IMG/VR virus record: IMGVR_UViG_3300005607_000202
Coordinates: 1-35,326 of that record
Length of the DNA: 35,326 bases
DNA from: a virus
Direction: 5' to 3' (one strand)
This document shows positions 2,472 through 33,932 of the stretch, one piece after another (the first letter of the stretch is position 1; each line of letters begins with the position of its first letter). Made by a program: the position numbers and the translations under genes. The notes below the pieces were generated by a model. The model worked only from the letters and a program-made list of their open reading frames with translations. It searched no databases and was not told where the DNA came from.

Positions 2472-3572
2472 CTACCACTCAAATATACCGAAAAAGAACT
2501 TCCAAAAATTCCAAGGTTTGGGAGGTGAAGCTCGGACAGGATAAGCAATTAATGCCATATTCTTTAGGCTTTCCTGAAGTGACTGATTGCTATCCTGTAG
2601 ATCAGTTCCTTGCAGTGGCCAGGCCAGAGCGCCATAATATCCCTGCTTTAATGCTAGGTTTACAATTGTTTTGGCCACAAACGGCCCCTGAATTTTTAGA
2701 GCTATATTCTGGCCACTTACAACAGGATATCCACATTCGCCAATAATACAGGGTTTGCCATCAAAATCCTCTCTGTAATATTGAGGAAGGTCGGCTCCAT
2801 AGTTGTTGTAAAAGTGAAAGTCAGAAAAGTCTGTAAGGTAGGAATACTTAATTGCATTTTCTCTTCGCATCCATCCGACCGAAAACGGTCTTTGAACCCG
2901 AATTGATCTGATTGTGTCTGCACAGAATTTAATGTATCTAACGATATCCATCTCTGAACAATGGCCATTTTCAAACAAGCCTTCTGGCTCATTCAGTAAG
3001 TCAAAGCCGTATAGGGCCGGATGGTTCATTACCCTCGCATACAACGTTTTCAAAACTCTTGTGCAAAAGTCAGTAGGATCGGCCACTATGCCCTTCAGTA
3101 TCGAAGTCATTGTATTGTATAGTATATCATAACTGGTGGTTCTGGCAGGATTGTTCTTGAACTGATCAGGTAGATTGTAATGACTGTCCCACGAATTTAG
3201 CAGACAGAAATAGATCTTCAATCCTCTCTCTTGAGCGAGATCAAGTATCTCTTCAACCACATCGAGCATTTGTGTATCAATCCCTCCAATCCTGCCATTT
3301 TGCAGAAAAACTATGCCTTCCAGGTGTTCAAAAAGCCAGATTCTTACTACATCCATGCCCTTGAACTGATCGAGTGTCTTTGCTAGGATGATAGGATCCT
3401 CCAAAGCAAGTGGCAGGGGTGGATTCGGGTCAGGCTTGGAAAAATCAAAATCTATGGGGTCAGAATACGGCCACTTCCACAACTGTTGTCCGGAGAATTG
3501 ATTGTATGACAGATCCGTTCCGTATCTATCTTGTAACCAAGGCTGATTGAATCCTACAGAGAACTTGACCAT
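2472..3572 (-). CDS. GH5-like glycoside hydrolase (cellulase/mannanase-type TIM barrel)
   Basis: 366 residues with the clan GH-A layout. VVRIWLFEHLEG (about residue 75) matches the strand-2 region, GFDLLNEPEG carries the expected acid/base Glu (E195 in LNEP), and PCIIGECGYP carries the expected nucleophile Glu (E279). The catalytic Asn before E195 is present. No signal peptide is seen. It lies among baseplate and tail genes, with its own CTTTTATTC promoter 25 bases before the ATG, so it is probably a virion enzyme that cuts cell-surface or extracellular polysaccharide during entry. The substrate cannot be told; cellulase, mannanase and other GH5 or GH2-related specificities are all possible. 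Confidence 0.75.
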   Translation of the reverse strand: MVKFSVGFNQPWLQDRYGTDLSYNQFSGQQLWKWPYSDPIDFDFSKPDPNPPLPLALEDPIILAKTLDQFKGMDVVRIWLFEHLEGIVFLQNGRIGGIDTQMLDVVEEILDLAQERGLKIYFCLLNSWDSHYNLPDQFKNNPARTTSYDILYNTMTSILKGIVADPTDFCTRVLKTLYARVMNHPALYGFDLLNEPEGLFENGHCSEMDIVRYIKFCADTIRSIRVQRPFSVGWMRRENAIKYSYLTDFSDFHFYNNYGADLPQYYREDFDGKPCIIGECGYPVVSGQNIALKIQGPFVAKTIVNLALKQGYYGALAWPLQGTDLQDSNQSLQESLKNMALIAYPVRASPPKPWNFWKFFFGIFEW

Positions 3573-3929: not shown

Positions 3930-3934
3930 TTCTT

Positions 3935-4066
3935 TTATTCGTCAGCCTCCATCGTGGGGGAATTATTCAGAGTATAGAGGATTTTATTTGGCAGCGTCAA
4001 CAATTGAGTGATATACCACTGAATATTCCGAATTGTCCATATTCTACGAAATCCAAAGTATGGCAT
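3935..4066 (-). CDS. 43-residue hypothetical protein
   Basis: Begins MPYFGFRRIWTIRNIQWYIT and ends in an acidic SPTMEADE tail. It is aromatic and basic in its first half. It fills the gap between two structural genes, with its TAA five bases before the next ATG, consistent with coupled translation. No clear promoter was found in front of it. It is not recognised. An opposite-strand CTTTTATTC match overlaps its stop codon. Confidence 0.4.
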   Translation of the reverse strand: MPYFGFRRIWTIRNIQWYITQLLTLPNKILYTLNNSPTMEADE

Positions 4067-4081
4067 TATCTCTCTCACCGA

Positions 4082-10011: not shown

Positions 10012-10072
10012 AGTGGCCAGTTTGATGGCAAATGCTAAAGGAATTGATTGGTAGATTATCGGCTGACCTACT

Positions 10073-10081
10073 CTTTTATTC
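10073..10081 (+). promoter_or_regulatory. Plus-strand copy of the CTTTTATTC promoter
   Basis: The plus strand reads CTACTCTTTTATTCCC, the same element as on the minus strand before genes. A start 26 bases on falls at about 10103, where a strong hairpin begins and no ORF is present. Confidence 0.45.
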
Positions 10082-10102
10082 CCTTCAAGACAACAAAAAA
10101 CG

Positions 10103-10150
10103 CCTGTGTGGTAGCGCCCCCGCCTTGTTCACCACACAATTATTTTTTCA
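10103..10150 (+). ncRNA. Short hairpin RNA or bidirectional terminator
   Basis: An inverted repeat TGTGTGGT (10105-10112) / ACCACACA (10131-10138) encloses an inner GCG/CGC stem. On the plus strand it is followed by TTATTTTTT, giving a possible RNA of under 50 nt from the promoter at 10073. On the minus strand it is followed by TTTTTT (10100-10095), which would end the transcript of the gene stopping at 10151. The structure is seen; whether it is an RNA, a two-way terminator or both is inferred. Confidence 0.45.
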
Positions 10151-10453: not shown

Positions 10454-10672
10454 CTAGATTACCTCCGCCATTCCAAATCTGGCCCTAACCTGGACTATTC
10501 TAGCTTTGACTGTTTTGCCCTTATATAGCTGGTTAAAATCTGCATCCTTGACAAAAATAACAAATCGCTCAACGTGAGTCACACCATCGCCGTGTTTTGA
10601 GATATCTTCAATGACAAGATCTAGCGTCTGTCCCACGTAAACTGGTTTGTTAGAACCAAAGCCTATGGCCAT
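10454..10672 (-). CDS. TRAM-domain protein
   Basis: 72 residues that form little more than a TRAM domain: PVYVGQTLDLVIEDISKHGD, then VTHVERFVIFVKDAD, then GKTVKARIVQVRARFGMAEV. TRAM is an OB-like RNA-binding fold, and stand-alone TRAM proteins are common in archaea, where they act as RNA chaperones. The ATG at 10672 is chosen over ATG 10687 and upstream starts because a TTCTTTTTTCCC element sits about 26 bases before it and the size then matches stand-alone TRAM proteins. A TRAM protein among head and tail genes is unusual; it could regulate host or virus RNA. Confidence 0.8.
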   Translation of the reverse strand: MAIGFGSNKPVYVGQTLDLVIEDISKHGDGVTHVERFVIFVKDADFNQLYKGKTVKARIVQVRARFGMAEVI

Positions 10673-10715
10673 GCTGGCAGTTCGCATAAAAAGGGAAAAA
10701 AGAACTTGTCGACTA

Positions 10716-11078
10716 TTACACTTGATTGTTGACGTTGCCACTTGTAACATACATCAGAGCCGGTTCAGCAATAGTGGCATTCTGTCTCTTCTTGGCTTCG
10801 ATATACGCCTGCACGAGCTTGTCAGATATACCCATGAAGTAGGCCGCCCTTTCATGGTCCTGTTTTTCTATCCTCTTGGCCTTTACCCTATAGTTGCTTG
10901 CAGATTTTAGTTCTGCGGGCGCAGGGTCGGCTATTGGGGTGGTGACATAGGGTGCTAGAAAGATATAGATCTCTTGGTCTGCCTCTAACCCCTGATTTAT
11001 CAGTTCATTTTCCTGTATTTCGTCAAATGGATCGATATCAAAAAACTGCATGAGTTCTTCGAGATTATATAATGCCAT
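10716..11078 (-). CDS. Probable head-tail connector protein
   Basis: 120 residues, mainly helical, beginning MALYNLEELMQFFDIDPFDE. It follows the major capsid gene, where HK97-like phages encode a gp6-type connector, and the acidic helical start fits that family. A CCTTTTTATTTTC promoter-like element is centred about 24 bases before the ATG. No strict motif is seen, so the call depends on position and helical pattern. Confidence 0.45.
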   Translation of the reverse strand: MALYNLEELMQFFDIDPFDEIQENELINQGLEADQEIYIFLAPYVTTPIADPAPAELKSASNYRVKAKRIEKQDHERAAYFMGISDKLVQAYIEAKKRQNATIAEPALMYVTSGNVNNQV

Positions 11079-13078: not shown

Positions 13079-13096
13079 AGAGAGTGTGATACTGCC

Positions 13097-14725: not shown

Positions 14726-16306
14726 TTATGCATTCAGCTTGGGAAGTGGCCGTTTCTGTCCATTTAACTGACTGTTGCCTGTTCCCGGGCCATGCGTTGG
14801 GAATTGTGGCTTCTTTTGGAACTGATTGAGTTGATTGCCAAATGGGCTGGCACCTGGTTCTGCAGGGTTCGGATTGGTGGCCGAGGGAATAGCCGTGCCA
14901 TGGCTATCTGTAGGCAACAGTTGTTCAGCCGTCCATGTATCCGGCATTAGCTCCACTCCGCCCTGGCTGGCATAGTTTCTAACTTCTTGGTCGCTAAATG
15001 CTGATGGCCTTGCCTTTAACAAGTCTACAAAAGTGGCCGCTTCCATCTTGGGCTTCTCAGCCATGCCCCAGTGGAGAACAAGTTTGGCCTCTTTCCATGG
15101 AATGGCCACACCGTTAGCATCTGTGTAGGGATTTGCCATATACCATGGCTTGAATATCTGAAGCATAAAGTCACGAGACATTAGGCGCTGAAATGCTCCA
15201 AAGTGCATCAATGCAGTTTCTTTGGCCACGTTGGAACTTGCTTCAGTCAGGGAACCATCTTCGTAGAGCTTCGACACTGGAGTGGCCAGAGCCTTGATAA
15301 TTTCATTTTTGGCCAGTTTATCGAACGACTCCAAGTCGATGGCTCTGGTGTTTCGGCCAAGTTCAAAGACATTGGTTTCACCACTCATTACCATGTCCTG
15401 CTCATCTAAGAGGTTGTCCACCTTGGCCTGCATGTCTGAAGCCTGCTTTGGAGTGGCCGCCTTTGCATTGTAGACATTGCGAGGAACGTAACGCTTGGCT
15501 ATCTTGTGGAAAGTATCCATGAATGAATTTTTGATATCAAACAGGCTCATTCTCTGCCTTGTTTCGTCCTGGCCGTTTCTTGTGTAGGTATACTGTGTCT
15601 TCGAAATGATGGGTGCCAAAAGCCCAAGGCCGAAGGGCTGAGCGTTAGAAATGCGCCAGCGGAAGTGTATCAGTTCTGCAGGAATCATCCTAACAATGGT
15701 ATAGCCTCTGAATTCGTAAAACCCAACTGTATTGTTAATTCCAGGTCCATTCCACCAGATTCTCTTCAGTGATGTCAGGGGCATGGGCTCTATTCTGTCG
15801 AACGATTTTTCCTGCAGGCTCTCTTCCTTGTAGGTCCACAATGAATTCCCATATCCTAGCGCTTCTCTGCCTGCCACCAGGGCTATTTCGTCCAGATTGA
15901 TGTTTTCTGCAAATTGTGTGATATAGTCAACAATCCCGGTATTCTGAATGCCGGCAGTGAAGTGATAGCCGACACCAACTGTCACAGCGGTGGCCCAGTC
16001 CAAACCGAAGGCGATTTCGGCATCATTTTCGTAAGCGTAAAGCATTTGTGCAAAAGAGTATTTTGGCTCTATAAACTGCGAAAAGGAAGTAAGCGGCCTA
16101 TAGATCGGATCCTGGAGAAGTGGTGGAGTAAGCATACCCCATTTGAACCAGGTTGATAAGCTCGTTAGAGGGATATTCAGACCAGTTCGGCCACTTCCAG
16201 AAGTTCCGATATCATAATTGTTTGCGCCTATTGCGGGAGCCGTCAGAGTGGATTCTTTCTGCTGTGGCTGGCTGGCTCGGCTAATGCTCAGAGGACCTAG
16301 TTTCAT
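14726..16306 (-). CDS. Portal protein
   Basis: 526 residues, the usual size for portal proteins. Recognisable parts are a long helix-rich core with GNSLWTYKEES and IEPMPLTSLKRIWW strands, IPAELIHFRWRISNAQPFGLG (the family's hxxhRxs-pfG segment), a stem and clip region near DMQAKVDNLLDEQDMVMSGE, the crown helix KLYEDGSLTEASSNVAKETA, and a disordered Pro/Gln tail. It forms the dodecameric DNA gate at one vertex and docks the terminase. The minus-strand sequence 24-30 bases upstream (CCTTTTTCCC) could be its promoter, and also the end of the RNA candidate before it. Confidence 0.85.
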   Translation of the reverse strand: MKLGPLSISRASQPQQKESTLTAPAIGANNYDIGTSGSGRTGLNIPLTSLSTWFKWGMLTPPLLQDPIYRPLTSFSQFIEPKYSFAQMLYAYENDAEIAFGLDWATAVTVGVGYHFTAGIQNTGIVDYITQFAENINLDEIALVAGREALGYGNSLWTYKEESLQEKSFDRIEPMPLTSLKRIWWNGPGINNTVGFYEFRGYTIVRMIPAELIHFRWRISNAQPFGLGLLAPIISKTQYTYTRNGQDETRQRMSLFDIKNSFMDTFHKIAKRYVPRNVYNAKAATPKQASDMQAKVDNLLDEQDMVMSGETNVFELGRNTRAIDLESFDKLAKNEIIKALATPVSKLYEDGSLTEASSNVAKETALMHFGAFQRLMSRDFMLQIFKPWYMANPYTDANGVAIPWKEAKLVLHWGMAEKPKMEAATFVDLLKARPSAFSDQEVRNYASQGGVELMPDTWTAEQLLPTDSHGTAIPSATNPNPAEPGASPFGNQLNQFQKKPQFPTHGPGTGNSQLNGQKRPLPKLNA

Positions 16307-16329
16307 TCAGACGGAATTCGGCCACTTGG

Positions 16330-16518
16330 GAAAAAGGAAGTTGTTAGAATAGATAGGCTGGCTCTGGCCACCATCACAGGTGATCAACCCTGCTTATGCG
16401 GCCATCATCGCCTATTATTTTGGAATCGTAATCAAGTCATTGCCTTTGTTGTAGGCTCGTTACGATCTCAATTGTCAGGCGATGGAGCCAGTTGGAACAA
16501 CAGACCGCTATCTGTTGA
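16330..16518 (-). ncRNA. Candidate structured noncoding RNA between terminase block and portal
   Basis: A perfect CTTTTATTC promoter (16540-16548) has no ORF at the usual distance; instead a hairpin begins where transcription should start. Helices on the minus strand: 16498-16504 with 16511-16517 (7 bp); 16485-16491 with 16358-16364 (7 bp); 16477-16484 with 16406-16413 (8 bp, directly stacked on the previous helix); 16460-16466 with 16425-16431 (7 bp); 16453-16456 with 16442-16445; and a small hairpin at 16369-16382 in the third arm. They are nested and form a three-way junction. A TTTTT run at 16335-16331 may end it. Length about 185 nt. It could be a packaging-type RNA, a portal mRNA leader or a regulator. 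Confidence 0.5.
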
Positions 16519-16539
16519 TAGTTACACATGGAAGATAGG

Positions 16540-16548
16540 GAATAAAAG
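16540..16548 (-). promoter_or_regulatory. CTTTTATTC promoter with no ORF behind it
   Basis: The minus strand reads GATCTTTTATTCCC, identical in core to gene promoters here. Start predicted at about 16518-16519. The nearest ATG (16529) opens only 30 codons and is too close to the element. Confidence 0.55.
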
Positions 16549-16581
16549 ATCACTTCTTGGTTTTCTTGCTTGGAGTGGTCG

Positions 16582-17040
16582 TTATCCGATTCTGTCCGGT
16601 GGCCCTTGAACCGTAGGTCCCGCAGTGGTTGACCCTGTGATATTCTGTGCCAGATCGGAGGCGGTTGTCGCCATAGGTAATTGTTCTGCTGCTATAGTGG
16701 CCATATCGACCTGCGCCGGTGTCTCTCCCTGCGGCTCTGTCTCTGTAACAACTGGCCCGGGTGGGACTTGCTGGAATACTTTCAGATATTGCATCACCTG
16801 ACCGATAACGTATTCCGTCTGACTGTCAGACATGGGGCCGCCGTGCCACGCAACAAGCAGGCGGGGTTCTGATCGGCCACTTGAATCCACCGGGTGGGAT
16901 ACAACTCTGGCGATCGTGTTTGGCTTTTGGATGTGAAAATAGTTCAGTAATTCTTCGTCCAGCAGGTTTTCGATATCCTTCATTGTGCCCAAAGTTAATT
17001 TTGTTTCGTCATACCCTTGCACATCGATTAGAAGATACAT
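16582..17040 (-). CDS. Hypothetical protein downstream of large terminase
   Basis: 152 residues. Residues 1-95 look folded (MYLLIDVQGYDETKLTLGTM, then RVVSHPVDSSGRSEPRLLVA), and the remainder is Pro/Thr/Ala-rich and probably disordered. The ATG lies three bases after the terminase stop, so the two are co-translated. Its place between terminase and portal suggests a packaging or head assembly accessory. It is not recognised. Confidence 0.55.
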   Translation of the reverse strand: MYLLIDVQGYDETKLTLGTMKDIENLLDEELLNYFHIQKPNTIARVVSHPVDSSGRSEPRLLVAWHGGPMSDSQTEYVIGQVMQYLKVFQQVPPGPVVTETEPQGETPAQVDMATIAAEQLPMATTASDLAQNITGSTTAGPTVQGPPDRIG

Positions 17041-17043
17041 CGA

Positions 17044-18597
17044 TTAACGCCTAGTCACGGGAAGTATATTGTAATTTCCTACACCCTGCTTCCAGACTTC
17101 AAAGGCGATCTTGGCATAGTTGCAACCGTGCAAAGCATCGTCTGGCTGTTCTTGCGGATGGTCATACCTCACATATGTTTTGCCCGATGGTAACTGCACA
17201 TTCTGAGCCTCAATGGCCGTAAAGTGATCTATTATCCAGTCGACCTTATCGGCTTCCACATGTGGAATCAGAATGCGGTTATGGCCATCTACGGCTGGCC
17301 TGGTGATTAAATCAATGATGGATTCAATGCCCCATGTGCGGTCAGTCTTGATGGCATTGTGGTCATAATCTATCTCTAAAGGCTGTCCTGGCCTTTCTGT
17401 ATAGAAATTCATGAGAGTTCTAAGCCCGTAGCGGTCGGCTAGCTTTTGGACCTGCCTTGTGCCTCCGCCAGCATCCATCACTACTTGGTCAGGATCGTAG
17501 GAATCTATAAGCTGTATGGCCATATCTGCCTGTTTTTCAGTATCTTTTTCGGCCACTTTTGATAGGTAAAGCACTCTGAATCTAGGAATGTCGGTGGCCA
17601 CGGCCTGCCATACCCAAAAGATAGTGTAGGCTTTGGTTCCACCACCCCAATCTATGCCCATAAAGACAGGTCCTTGGCCTTTGTTTACCGAGACGGCAGG
17701 GACAAAGTGTAGATTGTTATCAAATAGGGCTCGAATGGCCGCTTCTGATAAGGGTTTCTCTGCGCCCTTGAAGAACCAGCCTTCGACTTCAGTAGTGAAG
17801 AGACGTGGCAGGTATTCCCTCCGCTTGCGCTCTATCTCTTCGGCAGAGATCCATGGAACTACCCATTGTGGTAAATGATATGAGCTGGCCACTTTGATGT
17901 TCTCAGGATGTTTGGCCACCCAGGCTTTAGCCTGCGGATCCCATTCCTTCTGGTCGCCAGTGAGCCAGAGTTTGTGCCATGCATCGCCTTCTAAACTTCC
18001 AGTCCCTAGCACAAGTTTTCTTTTGAATTTACTGTGGCTCTGGGCTTCATCAATAACATTGATGGCTCTCAATTCCTGGTTCTGTGCTTCGTCTATCACG
18101 GCCCAATCAATCGTGAATTGCCTAGACATCTTGAATTCCTTAAAGCCGGAGAACATATACAGATGCGAGCCGTTCGGCAGGCCCATATGGTGAACAGAGC
18201 CATCATCAACAAACATTTGGCGCAGGATGGGAGAGTGGCCGATCGCCTGTTCCTTCAGTCTGACCATCGAAAACGAAGATACTTTCTCTAAAGTATCGGT
18301 GGCATAGAATCCAGTCGTAAACGGATTTTTGGATAAATGAAAGAGAAGCCAATTGATGGCAAATTCCGTAAACTCTACCTGCCTCCCCTTCACAACGTAA
18401 ACGTTGGGGTGAGTATCTCGATAGATTGGCAGAAGATATTCTCTCCTGTCAAAAGTGAATGGCTCACCCTTTAGCCTGCGGATCTGTGTTGTCCAGATGA
18501 CGATATCATCAGAAGTGGCCACTTTATCTTTGTCAATATCGGTTTGGAATACACCAGATAGGCCACTCAGATCGATTCTAGGATTCAGGCCGAACAA
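17044..18597 (-). CDS. terL: Terminase large subunit (packaging ATPase-nuclease)
   Basis: 517 residues with the two-domain terminase layout. The ATPase part has a degenerate Walker A at about 70-78 (KGRQVEFTE, as in many archaeal virus terminases), Walker B at 163-172 (IDWAVIDEAQ) and a coupling-type LGTGS near 197. The RNase H-like nuclease follows with Asp316 in GIDWGGGT, Asp375 in VVMDAGGGT and an Asp pair before ALHGCNYAKIA near 486. It should cut concatemers and drive DNA into the prohead. It starts with TTG at 18597, immediately after an in-frame TAG, and overlaps the small subunit gene by 20 bases. Confidence 0.9.
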   Translation of the reverse strand: MFGLNPRIDLSGLSGVFQTDIDKDKVATSDDIVIWTTQIRRLKGEPFTFDRREYLLPIYRDTHPNVYVVKGRQVEFTEFAINWLLFHLSKNPFTTGFYATDTLEKVSSFSMVRLKEQAIGHSPILRQMFVDDGSVHHMGLPNGSHLYMFSGFKEFKMSRQFTIDWAVIDEAQNQELRAINVIDEAQSHSKFKRKLVLGTGSLEGDAWHKLWLTGDQKEWDPQAKAWVAKHPENIKVASSYHLPQWVVPWISAEEIERKRREYLPRLFTTEVEGWFFKGAEKPLSEAAIRALFDNNLHFVPAVSVNKGQGPVFMGIDWGGGTKAYTIFWVWQAVATDIPRFRVLYLSKVAEKDTEKQADMAIQLIDSYDPDQVVMDAGGGTRQVQKLADRYGLRTLMNFYTERPGQPLEIDYDHNAIKTDRTWGIESIIDLITRPAVDGHNRILIPHVEADKVDWIIDHFTAIEAQNVQLPSGKTYVRYDHPQEQPDDALHGCNYAKIAFEVWKQGVGNYNILPVTRR

Positions 18598-19147
18598 CTA
18601 TTTGCAATCCACCATTATTTTCCAGTGCTTTCAGCCTGCGATAATCTGCCATGACCCTGGCCGCTTCTTTTGTTACCGGCCCGTGTTCTGATAACTTCAC
18701 CAACGCCATGGCAGCCATGCCAGCCAGCCTAAGCCATTCAGAACCACTTTTGCGCTTTATAGTTGTCGAGATCTCCATTTGGCCACCTTCGGTTAGATCC
18801 TTCATTGTATGATGTTCTTCTTTTTCTCCCTGTTCATAGCGCTGCCATGCTTCTTTGATTATCATTTCCATATTGCGTGTGGCCACTTCGAAGTGATGGC
18901 CGATATCCGGCAGGAACCTGGCAGCTATATACTCTGCAGAATGTTCTTTGATAAACTGAACATCATCATAGACCGTCTGTTTGGTCAGATAGAAATATTC
19001 TGGATAATCCTTCTGCAACTCTCTGATTATCTCTTCGGCCACTTTGCCCCTGGCCACTTTGTAGGCCACTCGCTCACGTCTAACTAGGATGTGTGCCTTA
19101 GATGGCCGATATTTCTTTGGCTTAAGTGGCCGCTCGTCTGCTGACAA
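18578..19147 (-). CDS. terS: Terminase small subunit
   Basis: 189 residues. A basic N-terminus leads into a helix-turn-helix-like region (VARGKVAEEIIRELQKDYPE, then YLTKQTVYDDVQFIKEHSAE), followed by long helices for oligomerisation and a C-terminal basic tail. This is the small terminase pattern: DNA recognition first, ring formation next. It directly precedes and overlaps the large subunit gene. The start is a TTG at 19147; a GGTGAT Shine-Dalgarno-like sequence sits nine bases before it, suited to an internal operon gene. Confidence 0.75.
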   Translation of the reverse strand: MSADERPLKPKKYRPSKAHILVRRERVAYKVARGKVAEEIIRELQKDYPEYFYLTKQTVYDDVQFIKEHSAEYIAARFLPDIGHHFEVATRNMEMIIKEAWQRYEQGEKEEHHTMKDLTEGGQMEISTTIKRKSGSEWLRLAGMAAMALVKLSEHGPVTKEAARVMADYRRLKALENNGGLQIVVRPES

Positions 19148-21010: not shown

Positions 21011-21041
21011 ATAGATTGTAGGTCGAAAAGAAAGGTTTAAG

Positions 21042-21127
21042 CGCCGGGCAGGGGATTTGAACCCCTGTATCTTGGGAAAGATACCCGCTCTTCAGGCGGG
21101 CGCCATACCTTACTAGGCGAGCCCGGC
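21042..21127 (-). tRNA. tRNA with GAA (Phe) anticodon on a type II, serine-like body
   Basis: An 86-base cloverleaf. Acceptor GCCGGGC pairs fully with GCCCGGC. The D arm is GCC/GGC with A14, G15 and G18G19; the anticodon stem is CCCGC/GCGGG with loop CTGAAGA, so U33 precedes anticodon GAA. A long variable arm has the stem TATCTT/AAGATA around TCCC. The T arm is AGGGG/CCCCT with loop TTCAAAT. The base after the acceptor (discriminator) is G and no CCA is encoded. Loop CTGAAGA is typical of archaeal tRNA-Phe, whereas the long variable arm and G73 are serine identity features. It may be charged with Ser yet read UUC/UUU codons, or be a highly altered Phe tRNA. Confidence 0.85.
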
Positions 21128-32230: not shown

Positions 32231-32713
32231 TTAGTCAGCCTTTTTGTGCTTGACCATAAAGAGGCCGTTTACCACATCTGGTTCTGGTGCTTCGGCCACT
32301 TTCTTTGCAAATGTCCCCACCTGCAAGCCGTTATCGCCCCAGACCGGCTGGAAGCCTGAAGCGATCAATGCGTTGACTTCCTGCACAGTGGTGGCCACAT
32401 CGAATGCCTCTACAGTTGGGTGACGGGGACCACCGAATTTGCTCTTGAATCCTCCCTGCCTGTTTTTGTCGTTATCGAGCTCTTCTTTTGATTTCTGAAC
32501 AAAGAACTTGCCCTTGCCGTCCTTGCTGGCCTCAGTCCTGTAGTAATATCCCTGATATTCGATCCATTCTCCGCCAGGATTATTGAGAGAAGCGGCCAGT
32601 TTTGAAACGAGATCCGAAGGCATTTTTCCGAGGTCATCAGTCTTGGCCCAGTAGCGCCCATTCTCATTTGTCTTGTTGAAGGGCGGGCAAAGTGGCCGTG
32701 TTTGCTGACTCAA
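32231..32713 (-). CDS. 160-residue hypothetical early protein
   Basis: TTG 32713 overlaps the preceding stop (TTGA). Sequence pattern is NENGRYWAKTDDLGKMPSDL, an aromatic strand pair (EWIEYQGYYYRTEAS), a basic Gly-rich linker (GGFKSKFGGPRHPTVEAF) and a C-terminal alpha/beta segment. Aromatic-rich strands with a flexible tail could suit single-stranded nucleic-acid binding, but this is a guess. No known family. Confidence 0.45.
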   Translation of the reverse strand: MSQQTRPLCPPFNKTNENGRYWAKTDDLGKMPSDLVSKLAASLNNPGGEWIEYQGYYYRTEASKDGKGKFFVQKSKEELDNDKNRQGGFKSKFGGPRHPTVEAFDVATTVQEVNALIASGFQPVWGDNGLQVGTFAKKVAEAPEPDVVNGLFMVKHKKAD

Positions 32714-33582
32714 TTAACCTTCCCCTCCGGGAAAATTGTATGACCATTCCAAGGGCAGTCAGGTTCACATTCTTTCTTGTGAAGCGCAATCAGAGCGTCA
32801 ATGTCATTTCTGTTCATTGCCTTGGCGGCAGCCTTCTGGTCCTGCACTTTTCGCAGAAGTTTAAGACGAATTGGAACTTCTTTGGGGTCCTTGTTTTCTT
32901 TGATATATGCAATTCTGTTTTCGATTGGCTCATAAGTTCGCTCAATTAGCATTTCATGATGGATGTGCCAGTAAAGCTCATGGGTTATTGGATTGGGAGG
33001 AGCAACTTCTCCTAGTATCACATCTCCCTTTTTGACTTCAGCCTCGACCTTTTGCAGATTTCTATTATCAAATCCTACGGCTATTCTCAGGCCGGAAACA
33101 AACTTTGCCCTTATTCCGTAAAGGAGCGATATGATCCCCTGCCCAGCCTCGATTCCTTCTCCAGCCTTGATTCCCTGCCCAGCCTTGATTCCCTGCCCAG
33201 CCTTGATTCCCTGCCCAGCCTCGATTCCTTCTCCAGCCTTGATTCCCCATCCAGCCTTGATTCCCTGCCCAGCCTCGATTCCCCATCCAGCCTTGATTCC
33301 CTGCCCAGCCTCGATTCCTTCTCCAGCCTTGATTCCCCATCCAGCCTTGATTCCTTCTCCAGCCTTGATTCCCTGCCCAGCCTCGATTCCCTGCCCAGCC
33401 TCGATTCCTGTTCCAGAACCCGCGACAATGGAGTGTGTGGCACTGATTCCAAACTTGAAGATGACCCACCCTAGATTGGCTTCAATCTTTATGCTTCCGT
33501 CAACTGAAAGGTTGGAATCGTAATGGAGAAAACCTGATTCCTCTCTAAAGTCTTGCCTGCTTAGAATCTTATCTTCTGTCAT
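32710..33582 (-). CDS. Protein with 15 six-residue GIxAGx repeats (beta-helix-like)
   Basis: 290 residues from ATG 33582 (ATGA overlap; longer frame ignored). Residues about 58-150 consist of 15 units GIKAGQ/E/W or GIEAGQ, encoded by 18-base direct repeats. The regular Ile-x-Ala-Gly spacing fits a beta-roll or left-handed helix. After this come a beta segment (VKKGDVILGEVAPPNPITHE) and a charged helix. Repeats of this type are known from phage and archaeal virus proteins but their role is unclear. Unit number should vary between isolates. Confidence 0.65.
   Translation of the reverse strand: MTEDKILSRQDFREESGFLHYDSNLSVDGSIKIEANLGWVIFKFGISATHSIVAGSGTGIEAGQGIEAGQGIKAGEGIKAGWGIKAGEGIEAGQGIKAGWGIEAGQGIKAGWGIKAGEGIEAGQGIKAGQGIKAGQGIKAGEGIEAGQGIISLLYGIRAKFVSGLRIAVGFDNRNLQKVEAEVKKGDVILGEVAPPNPITHELYWHIHHEMLIERTYEPIENRIAYIKENKDPKEVPIRLKLLRKVQDQKAAAKAMNRNDIDALIALHKKECEPDCPWNGHTIFPEGKVN
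33135..33411 (-). repeat. 18-base tandem repeat array, about 15 units
   Basis: Units such as attccctgcccagccttg are repeated head to tail with two main variants (cccagcc versus tccagcc). All six frames stay open because the unit is a multiple of three. The array is coding on the minus strand and is not a CRISPR array: there are no unique spacers. Confidence 0.85.
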
Positions 33583-33932
33583 TGGCCACCAACCGCCTGC
33601 AGGTATTCCTGCACAGTCCATTCATGAGCCTTCACCTTCAAGGGATAGTTCTGATTGACCTTCAGAATTACAAAATTGATAATTTCTGGTTGGATAGGCC
33701 GCAGATTGAGAGTCTGTTCAGCAACATAGCTTTCGTTCCATAGATGATGATGTTGAACTATTTTGGCAGCCCAATAGATGCATTCAGCACAGAATGGATC
33801 GAATTGGTCTGCTAAAGTATGGCTGCCTGCATGATATGTCAGATCGAAAGACAATTTTGAAATATGGTCCTCAACCTTCTGTCTGGCGGGGGATAGAGGT
33901 CTTTTTGGTGCCTGTGTGGTAACTTGTGCCAT
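33579..33932 (-). CDS. 117-residue hypothetical protein
   Basis: Helical, with a Cys-His-containing middle (DPFCAECIYWAAKIVQHHHL) and C-terminal helix (LKVKAHEWTVQEYLQAV). The CAEC plus HHH cluster might bind a metal. ATG overlaps the preceding stop. It lies second in the leftward early operon. Not recognised. Confidence 0.5.
   Translation of the reverse strand: MAQVTTQAPKRPLSPARQKVEDHISKLSFDLTYHAGSHTLADQFDPFCAECIYWAAKIVQHHHLWNESYVAEQTLNLRPIQPEIINFVILKVNQNYPLKVKAHEWTVQEYLQAVGGQ

Follow-up and report, generated by a model that had tools for sequence, protein, structure and literature searches.

A promoter-linked, multi-helix RNA predicted beside the portal gene of a probable archaeal tailed virus

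Background

The packaging RNA (pRNA) of phi29 has a length of 174 nt, is described as unique to phi29-like phages and partners a terminase with a vestigial nuclease domain (PMC11476376). Its three-way junction motif and the connector assemble into a ring (PMC6765105). Among pRNAs, little sequence is shared while structure is kept (PMC5340915), and a pRNA covariance model misses divergent members such as the pRNA of Cp1 (PMC6266182). Two other kinds of described element invite comparison with the locus reported here, namely the small non-coding RNAs encoded by viruses and the structured 5′ leaders of late viral or cellular operons.

We analysed a virus record window of 35,326 bases (the window is the whole stretch of DNA studied), in which the majority of genes lie on the minus strand. 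To our knowledge, structured non-coding RNAs of archaeal tailed viruses have hardly been described. A preliminary description of this DNA had proposed that a promoter drives a multi-helix RNA next to the portal gene of what is probably an archaeal tailed virus, and that this RNA is something other than an ordinary ORF; our analysis supports this core proposal. We read the region as a stand-alone, lineage-specific accessory gene for a late non-coding RNA and give this reading about an even chance of being right.

Results

The virus and its packaging genes

The features of the locus are listed in Table 1. The large terminase subunit matches phrog_675 (E 1.7e-64) and retains the nuclease aspartates at the invariant positions D316, D375 and D486/D487, which on sequence criteria makes it a canonical full ATPase–nuclease. 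The ORF directly before it is small-terminase-like by position and helical content; this is a candidate identity and not a proven one, and the structure model of this ORF gave no significant structural match. The portal was identified by comparison with phage-portal profiles (probability 95%, E 1.7e-8) instead of from its AlphaFold model, which was unusable (pLDDT 32). The RNA had been placed between the terminase and portal genes: it does lie beside the portal, but the 152-aa ORF separates it from the large terminase.

An MCM helicase gene is also present in the window, and its matches in phage records were to archaeal viruses only. Starting from genomes reached through archaeal 16S loci, we found terminase relatives with 35–58% identity, including partial ones, in the phylum to which a Nitrososphaeria genome belongs and little elsewhere. 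In an alignment with bacterial phages, terminase relatives were at most 31% identical, except for one 38-residue fragment-type match from a later scan. Because the MCM matches are archaeal viruses and the terminase relatives come mostly from the Nitrososphaeria phylum, the host most probably belongs to the Thermoproteota, an assignment drawn from gene relatives, and the virus is probably a tailed virus of these archaea. Single-protein scans of IMG/VR with the large terminase subunit, the portal, the MCM helicase and a candidate capsid protein gave no close relatives; the MCM alignment was too divergent for use as a scan query.

Table 1 Coordinates of the predicted RNA, its neighbours and the further promoter copies that lack a gene
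Feature	Position	Strand	Remarks
Third orphan exact promoter copy	3931..3940	+	No unusual structure after it
Second orphan promoter	10072..10081 (element 10072..10150)	+	Hairpin from 10102, then UUAUUUUUUC
Portal protein gene	14726..16306	-	526 aa; profile–profile match to phage portals
CCTTTTTCCC tract	16328..16337	-	Putative U-rich RNA end and/or weak portal promoter; 31 nt from portal ATG
Predicted non-coding RNA	16329..16519	-	+1 at 16519; end at or near U tract; both ends predicted
Three-way junction core	16358..16491	-	P1, P2 arm (16484-16406) and P3 arm (16404-16365)
5′ hairpin	16498..16517	-	8 bp, loop AGCG
Promoter box TCTTTTATTC	16540..16549	-	Exact copy of virus consensus, ahead of predicted RNA
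ORF, function unassigned	16582..17040	-	152 aa; between large terminase gene and RNA
Large terminase subunit	17044..18597	-	517 aa; ATPase and nuclease motifs present
ORF, mostly helical	18578..19147	-	189 aa; position of a small terminase subunit, directly before large terminase

A promoter box with a fixed spacing

Exact copies of TCTTTTATTC occur eight times in the window, compared with 0.21 expected from dinucleotide shuffles, none of which (0/100) reached eight. Six are on the minus strand. A start codon follows 30–31 nt downstream of every one of the five minus-strand copies at 576, 3602, 5097, 13079 and 21011, the first of which precedes a 39-aa zinc-finger-like ORF that we identified by reading the sequence itself; this spacing fits promoters whose messages are leaderless and begin at +1. 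No start codon lies 30–31 nt from the copy at 16549, the only one on the minus strand to break the rule, which confirms the earlier remark that a perfect promoter copy stands here with no ORF at the right distance. Taken together, this copy and the spacing rule therefore predict a +1 at 16519. A 38-aa ORF (16437-16553) that overlaps both the promoter and the RNA was rejected because every start codon it has precedes the predicted +1. A late promoter box from which a transcription start is predicted although no gene follows amounts to a testable promoter rule; if it is transcribed, the region would extend the late programme of this poorly known virus lineage by a new RNA.

The two plus-strand copies (3931 and 10072) also lack genes and lie in intergenic gaps. 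That these exact copies are likewise geneless, and that one is followed by a hairpin and a U run, is in line with a separate RNA at 16519. Downstream of the copy at 3931 (3931-4081, plus strand) there was no ORF of at least 45 aa starting 20–70 nt from the promoter and no unusual fold. The hairpin of the 10072-10150 element carries T6 at both sides, one per strand; this element could be a short RNA of about 45 nt, possibly antisense, or a two-way terminator.

Predicted fold of the RNA

The 5′ hairpin, previously described as 7 bp long and beginning at +1, is present, but it has 8 bp including one U–G (16517-16510/16505-16498) and begins at +3. After it, helix P1 (16491-16485/16364-16358, 7 bp) and helix P2 (16484-16477/16413-16406, 8 bp plus a G–U) have abutting 5′ strands, and their 3′ strands are separated by 41 bases that hold a hairpin of their own, exactly as first reported. 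This hairpin is P3 (16404-16398/16371-16365, then 5 bp). The predicted fold agrees with the proposed three-way junction and its further nested helices, which lie in the P2 arm. The junction is compact, with linkers of 0, 1 and 0 unpaired bases, and pair probabilities are mostly 0.9–1, with one dominant structure predicted.

The 135-nt core folded at -60.1 kcal/mol compared with a shuffle mean of about -33 (z -7.5); with 1,000 shuffles, z was -7.1 and the best shuffle reached -51.0 kcal/mol. For the 191-nt region, z was -6.4. The lowest z among 400 random 135-nt windows drawn from this genome was -5.3, and when the minus strand of the whole window was scanned in fixed 190-nt steps, the RNA region ranked 4th of 586, with the tRNA region first. 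Such a strong fold with a single dominant structure argues for a separate RNA, as does its dependence on strand: the strand opposite the promoter's folded 10 kcal/mol worse (-49.9 kcal/mol, z -4.3). Given this strand bias and the G–U pairs, it is therefore RNA, not DNA, that looks selected, and folding energies point to the promoter's strand as the functional one. A DNA-level element, such as a site for packaging or recombination with inverted repeats that simply look like an RNA, would suit the nearby terminase genes and the folding of the repeats on both strands; the strand-specific stability and the rightly placed exact promoter favour RNA, and we regard a DNA element as very improbable.

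The 3′ end and the portal start

The junction ends before the CCUUUUUCCC tract, which itself lies 31 nt from the portal ATG, and the sequence that follows the junction is CUAACAACUUCCUUUUUCCC. The CCTTTTTCCC tract matches the promoter box at 6/10 bases, and its distance to the portal ATG is the leaderless spacing; it may be the end of the RNA and a weak leaderless portal promoter, both at once. A separate RNA is favoured by this U-rich closure of the structure ahead of the portal ATG and by a T-rich box at the leaderless distance. The box is, however, a weak match that may be no promoter, in which case the RNA would be the leader of the portal message. Short gaps between late genes also commonly carry T- and C-rich tracts, which could either terminate the preceding gene or act as weak promoters for the next, and this weakens the argument from the tract.

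The region would in that case be a structured 5′ leader of the portal operon, with the promoter at 16549 driving the portal and the next gene. A leader of this kind (213 nt) would control how stable the RNA is, how it is translated or what fraction of transcripts terminates at the U tract, limiting the portal dose. Of the exact promoter copies, this one is closest to the portal, towards which it is directed; going downstream, the next is met at 13079, and the unit would thus comprise the portal and a 533-aa gene. The position is also that of structured leaders in late viral and cellular operons, between promoter and structural gene on the same strand with a U tract between, where partial termination could occur. 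By contrast, the other minus-strand promoter copies start what look like leaderless mRNAs, and a 213-nt leader with no evident Shine–Dalgarno sequence would be atypical for this virus. The fold also differs from structured leaders in being single-state and off the start codon: it stops about 50 nt before the ATG, which it leaves uncovered, and a candidate box precedes the portal itself. We hold a portal leader to be a serious possibility, although one with clearly less than an even chance.

If instead the RNA is separate, as we prefer, RNA polymerase would start at 16519 from the same TATA-like promoter as that of the leaderless late genes of this virus and produce a transcript of about 190 nt that terminates in the U-rich tract near position 16335. 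With its 5′ hairpin and compact three-way junction, this transcript would be stable, adopt a single state and probably act in trans late in infection, binding a protein or another RNA. Expression of the portal gene would then depend on read-through or on a weaker leaderless promoter belonging to that gene. We infer all three of transcription, the ends and independence from the portal mRNA. Such an RNA would resemble virus-encoded small non-coding RNAs in its stable fold, its U-rich end and, as in an independent viral non-coding RNA gene, a promoter of its own with no ORF at the spacing of that promoter; it would differ from them in that no described Rfam family matches it.

Relatives of the locus

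Searches for homologues of the RNA by blastn in phages, and with a single-sequence covariance model in 50 other loci, in 201 genomes of the order holding the terminase relatives and, with filters off, in two syntenic relatives, all gave no match; a model of this kind is weak, and the negatives speak to close homologues only. Homologues were thus not found in the sets searched and hence no covariation supports conservation of the fold, which counts against a separate RNA gene. In Rfam, no family reached its gathering score in the RNA region; weak C/D-box snoRNA hits were far below gathering score and were rejected. A DNA pattern derived from the P1–P2 strand found 23 loci, about the chance number by our own estimate.

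Three relatives (L220, L262 and L263) have weak tblastn portal homologues downstream of their terminase gene. The terminase–portal gap is 45 nt in L220. In L262 and L263, in which the terminase is 41% and 35% and the portal 24% and 22% identical, respectively, about 1.6–1.7 kb holding small ORFs lie between the two genes, and these intervals contained no window below z -2.5 and no covariance-model hit. As judged from these sequences, a comparable RNA is absent from all three despite homologous terminase and portal genes, all of them in distant relatives. To the extent that such distant relatives can tell, the packaging module thus does not regularly include the RNA, which looks like a lineage accessory rather than a conserved component of that module, consistent with a separate RNA gene.

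Two further candidates were rejected. In L228, a virus whose terminase is 38% identical, a junction-like fold (10655-10750) precedes a 587-aa ORF, but this ORF is not recognizable as a portal and z is only -2.9. In L232, one window reached z -5.1, yet a 261-nt refold around it gave z -1.3.

Large-terminase genes with a small-subunit-like ORF in front were also seen in L203 (12084-14157), L218 (4362-6504) and L219 (8720-10818). No recognizable portal homologue lies near them and their contigs look chromosomal; the L203 gene adjoins an apparent 23S rRNA, judged by eye. These terminases are possibly stranded or domesticated.

Comparison with packaging RNA

The preliminary description had likened the RNA to phi29 pRNA in size and location; a packaging RNA of this kind would form a ring on the portal and help the terminase to dock. 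The likeness in shape and place remains: both are virus-encoded and of similar size, with a three-way junction bearing two arms, the junction core here (134 nt within a predicted RNA of about 190 nt) falls among pRNA-type RNAs (three-way junction, about 120–174 nt), and the locus adjoins the gene of the head–tail connector. The P2 and P3 loops (ACAACAA and GUUGAUCA) could pair over 4 nt (GUUG/CAAC), as interlocking pRNA loops do, although a match of this length arises by chance in 6–11% of cases. The features that define the pRNA family are absent or in part uncertain. Neither sequence nor covariance searches connect the two, and the pRNA family of Rfam gave no match up to E 5 in the 321-nt region searched. 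The terminase, accompanied here by a small-terminase-like ORF, is a full ATPase–nuclease that retains its nuclease aspartates, in contrast to phi29 gp16 with its vestigial nuclease domain, and pRNA is reported to be unique to phi29-like phages (PMC11476376). The RNA is also not conserved with the packaging genes in the three distant relatives above, which have the same genes and no such RNA. A phi29-like packaging-RNA interpretation is thus not supported, and we consider an analogous packaging RNA improbable. Equally improbable, in our estimate, is the independent evolution in an archaeal tailed virus of a three-way-junction RNA with a place on the portal and a role in DNA packaging.

Other features of the window

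Further observations concern the rest of the window. In the tail region, 2472-3572 (minus strand) weakly matches glycosyl hydrolase family 5 with a score under the curated cut-off, and 18-base tandem repeats occupy 33047-33404 (minus strand) inside the ORF 32710-33621. A tRNA gene at 21041-21127 (minus strand) has a Phe anticodon (GAA), yet its long variable arm and G discriminator are features of a serine tRNA body. Finally, AAGTGGCC/GGCCACTT occurs 48 times in the window (17 on the plus and 31 on the minus strand), compared with about one expected from arithmetic. It is found in coding and non-coding sequence alike, with examples at 16196, 16327, 16882 and 19044, and is possibly a binding or recognition site.
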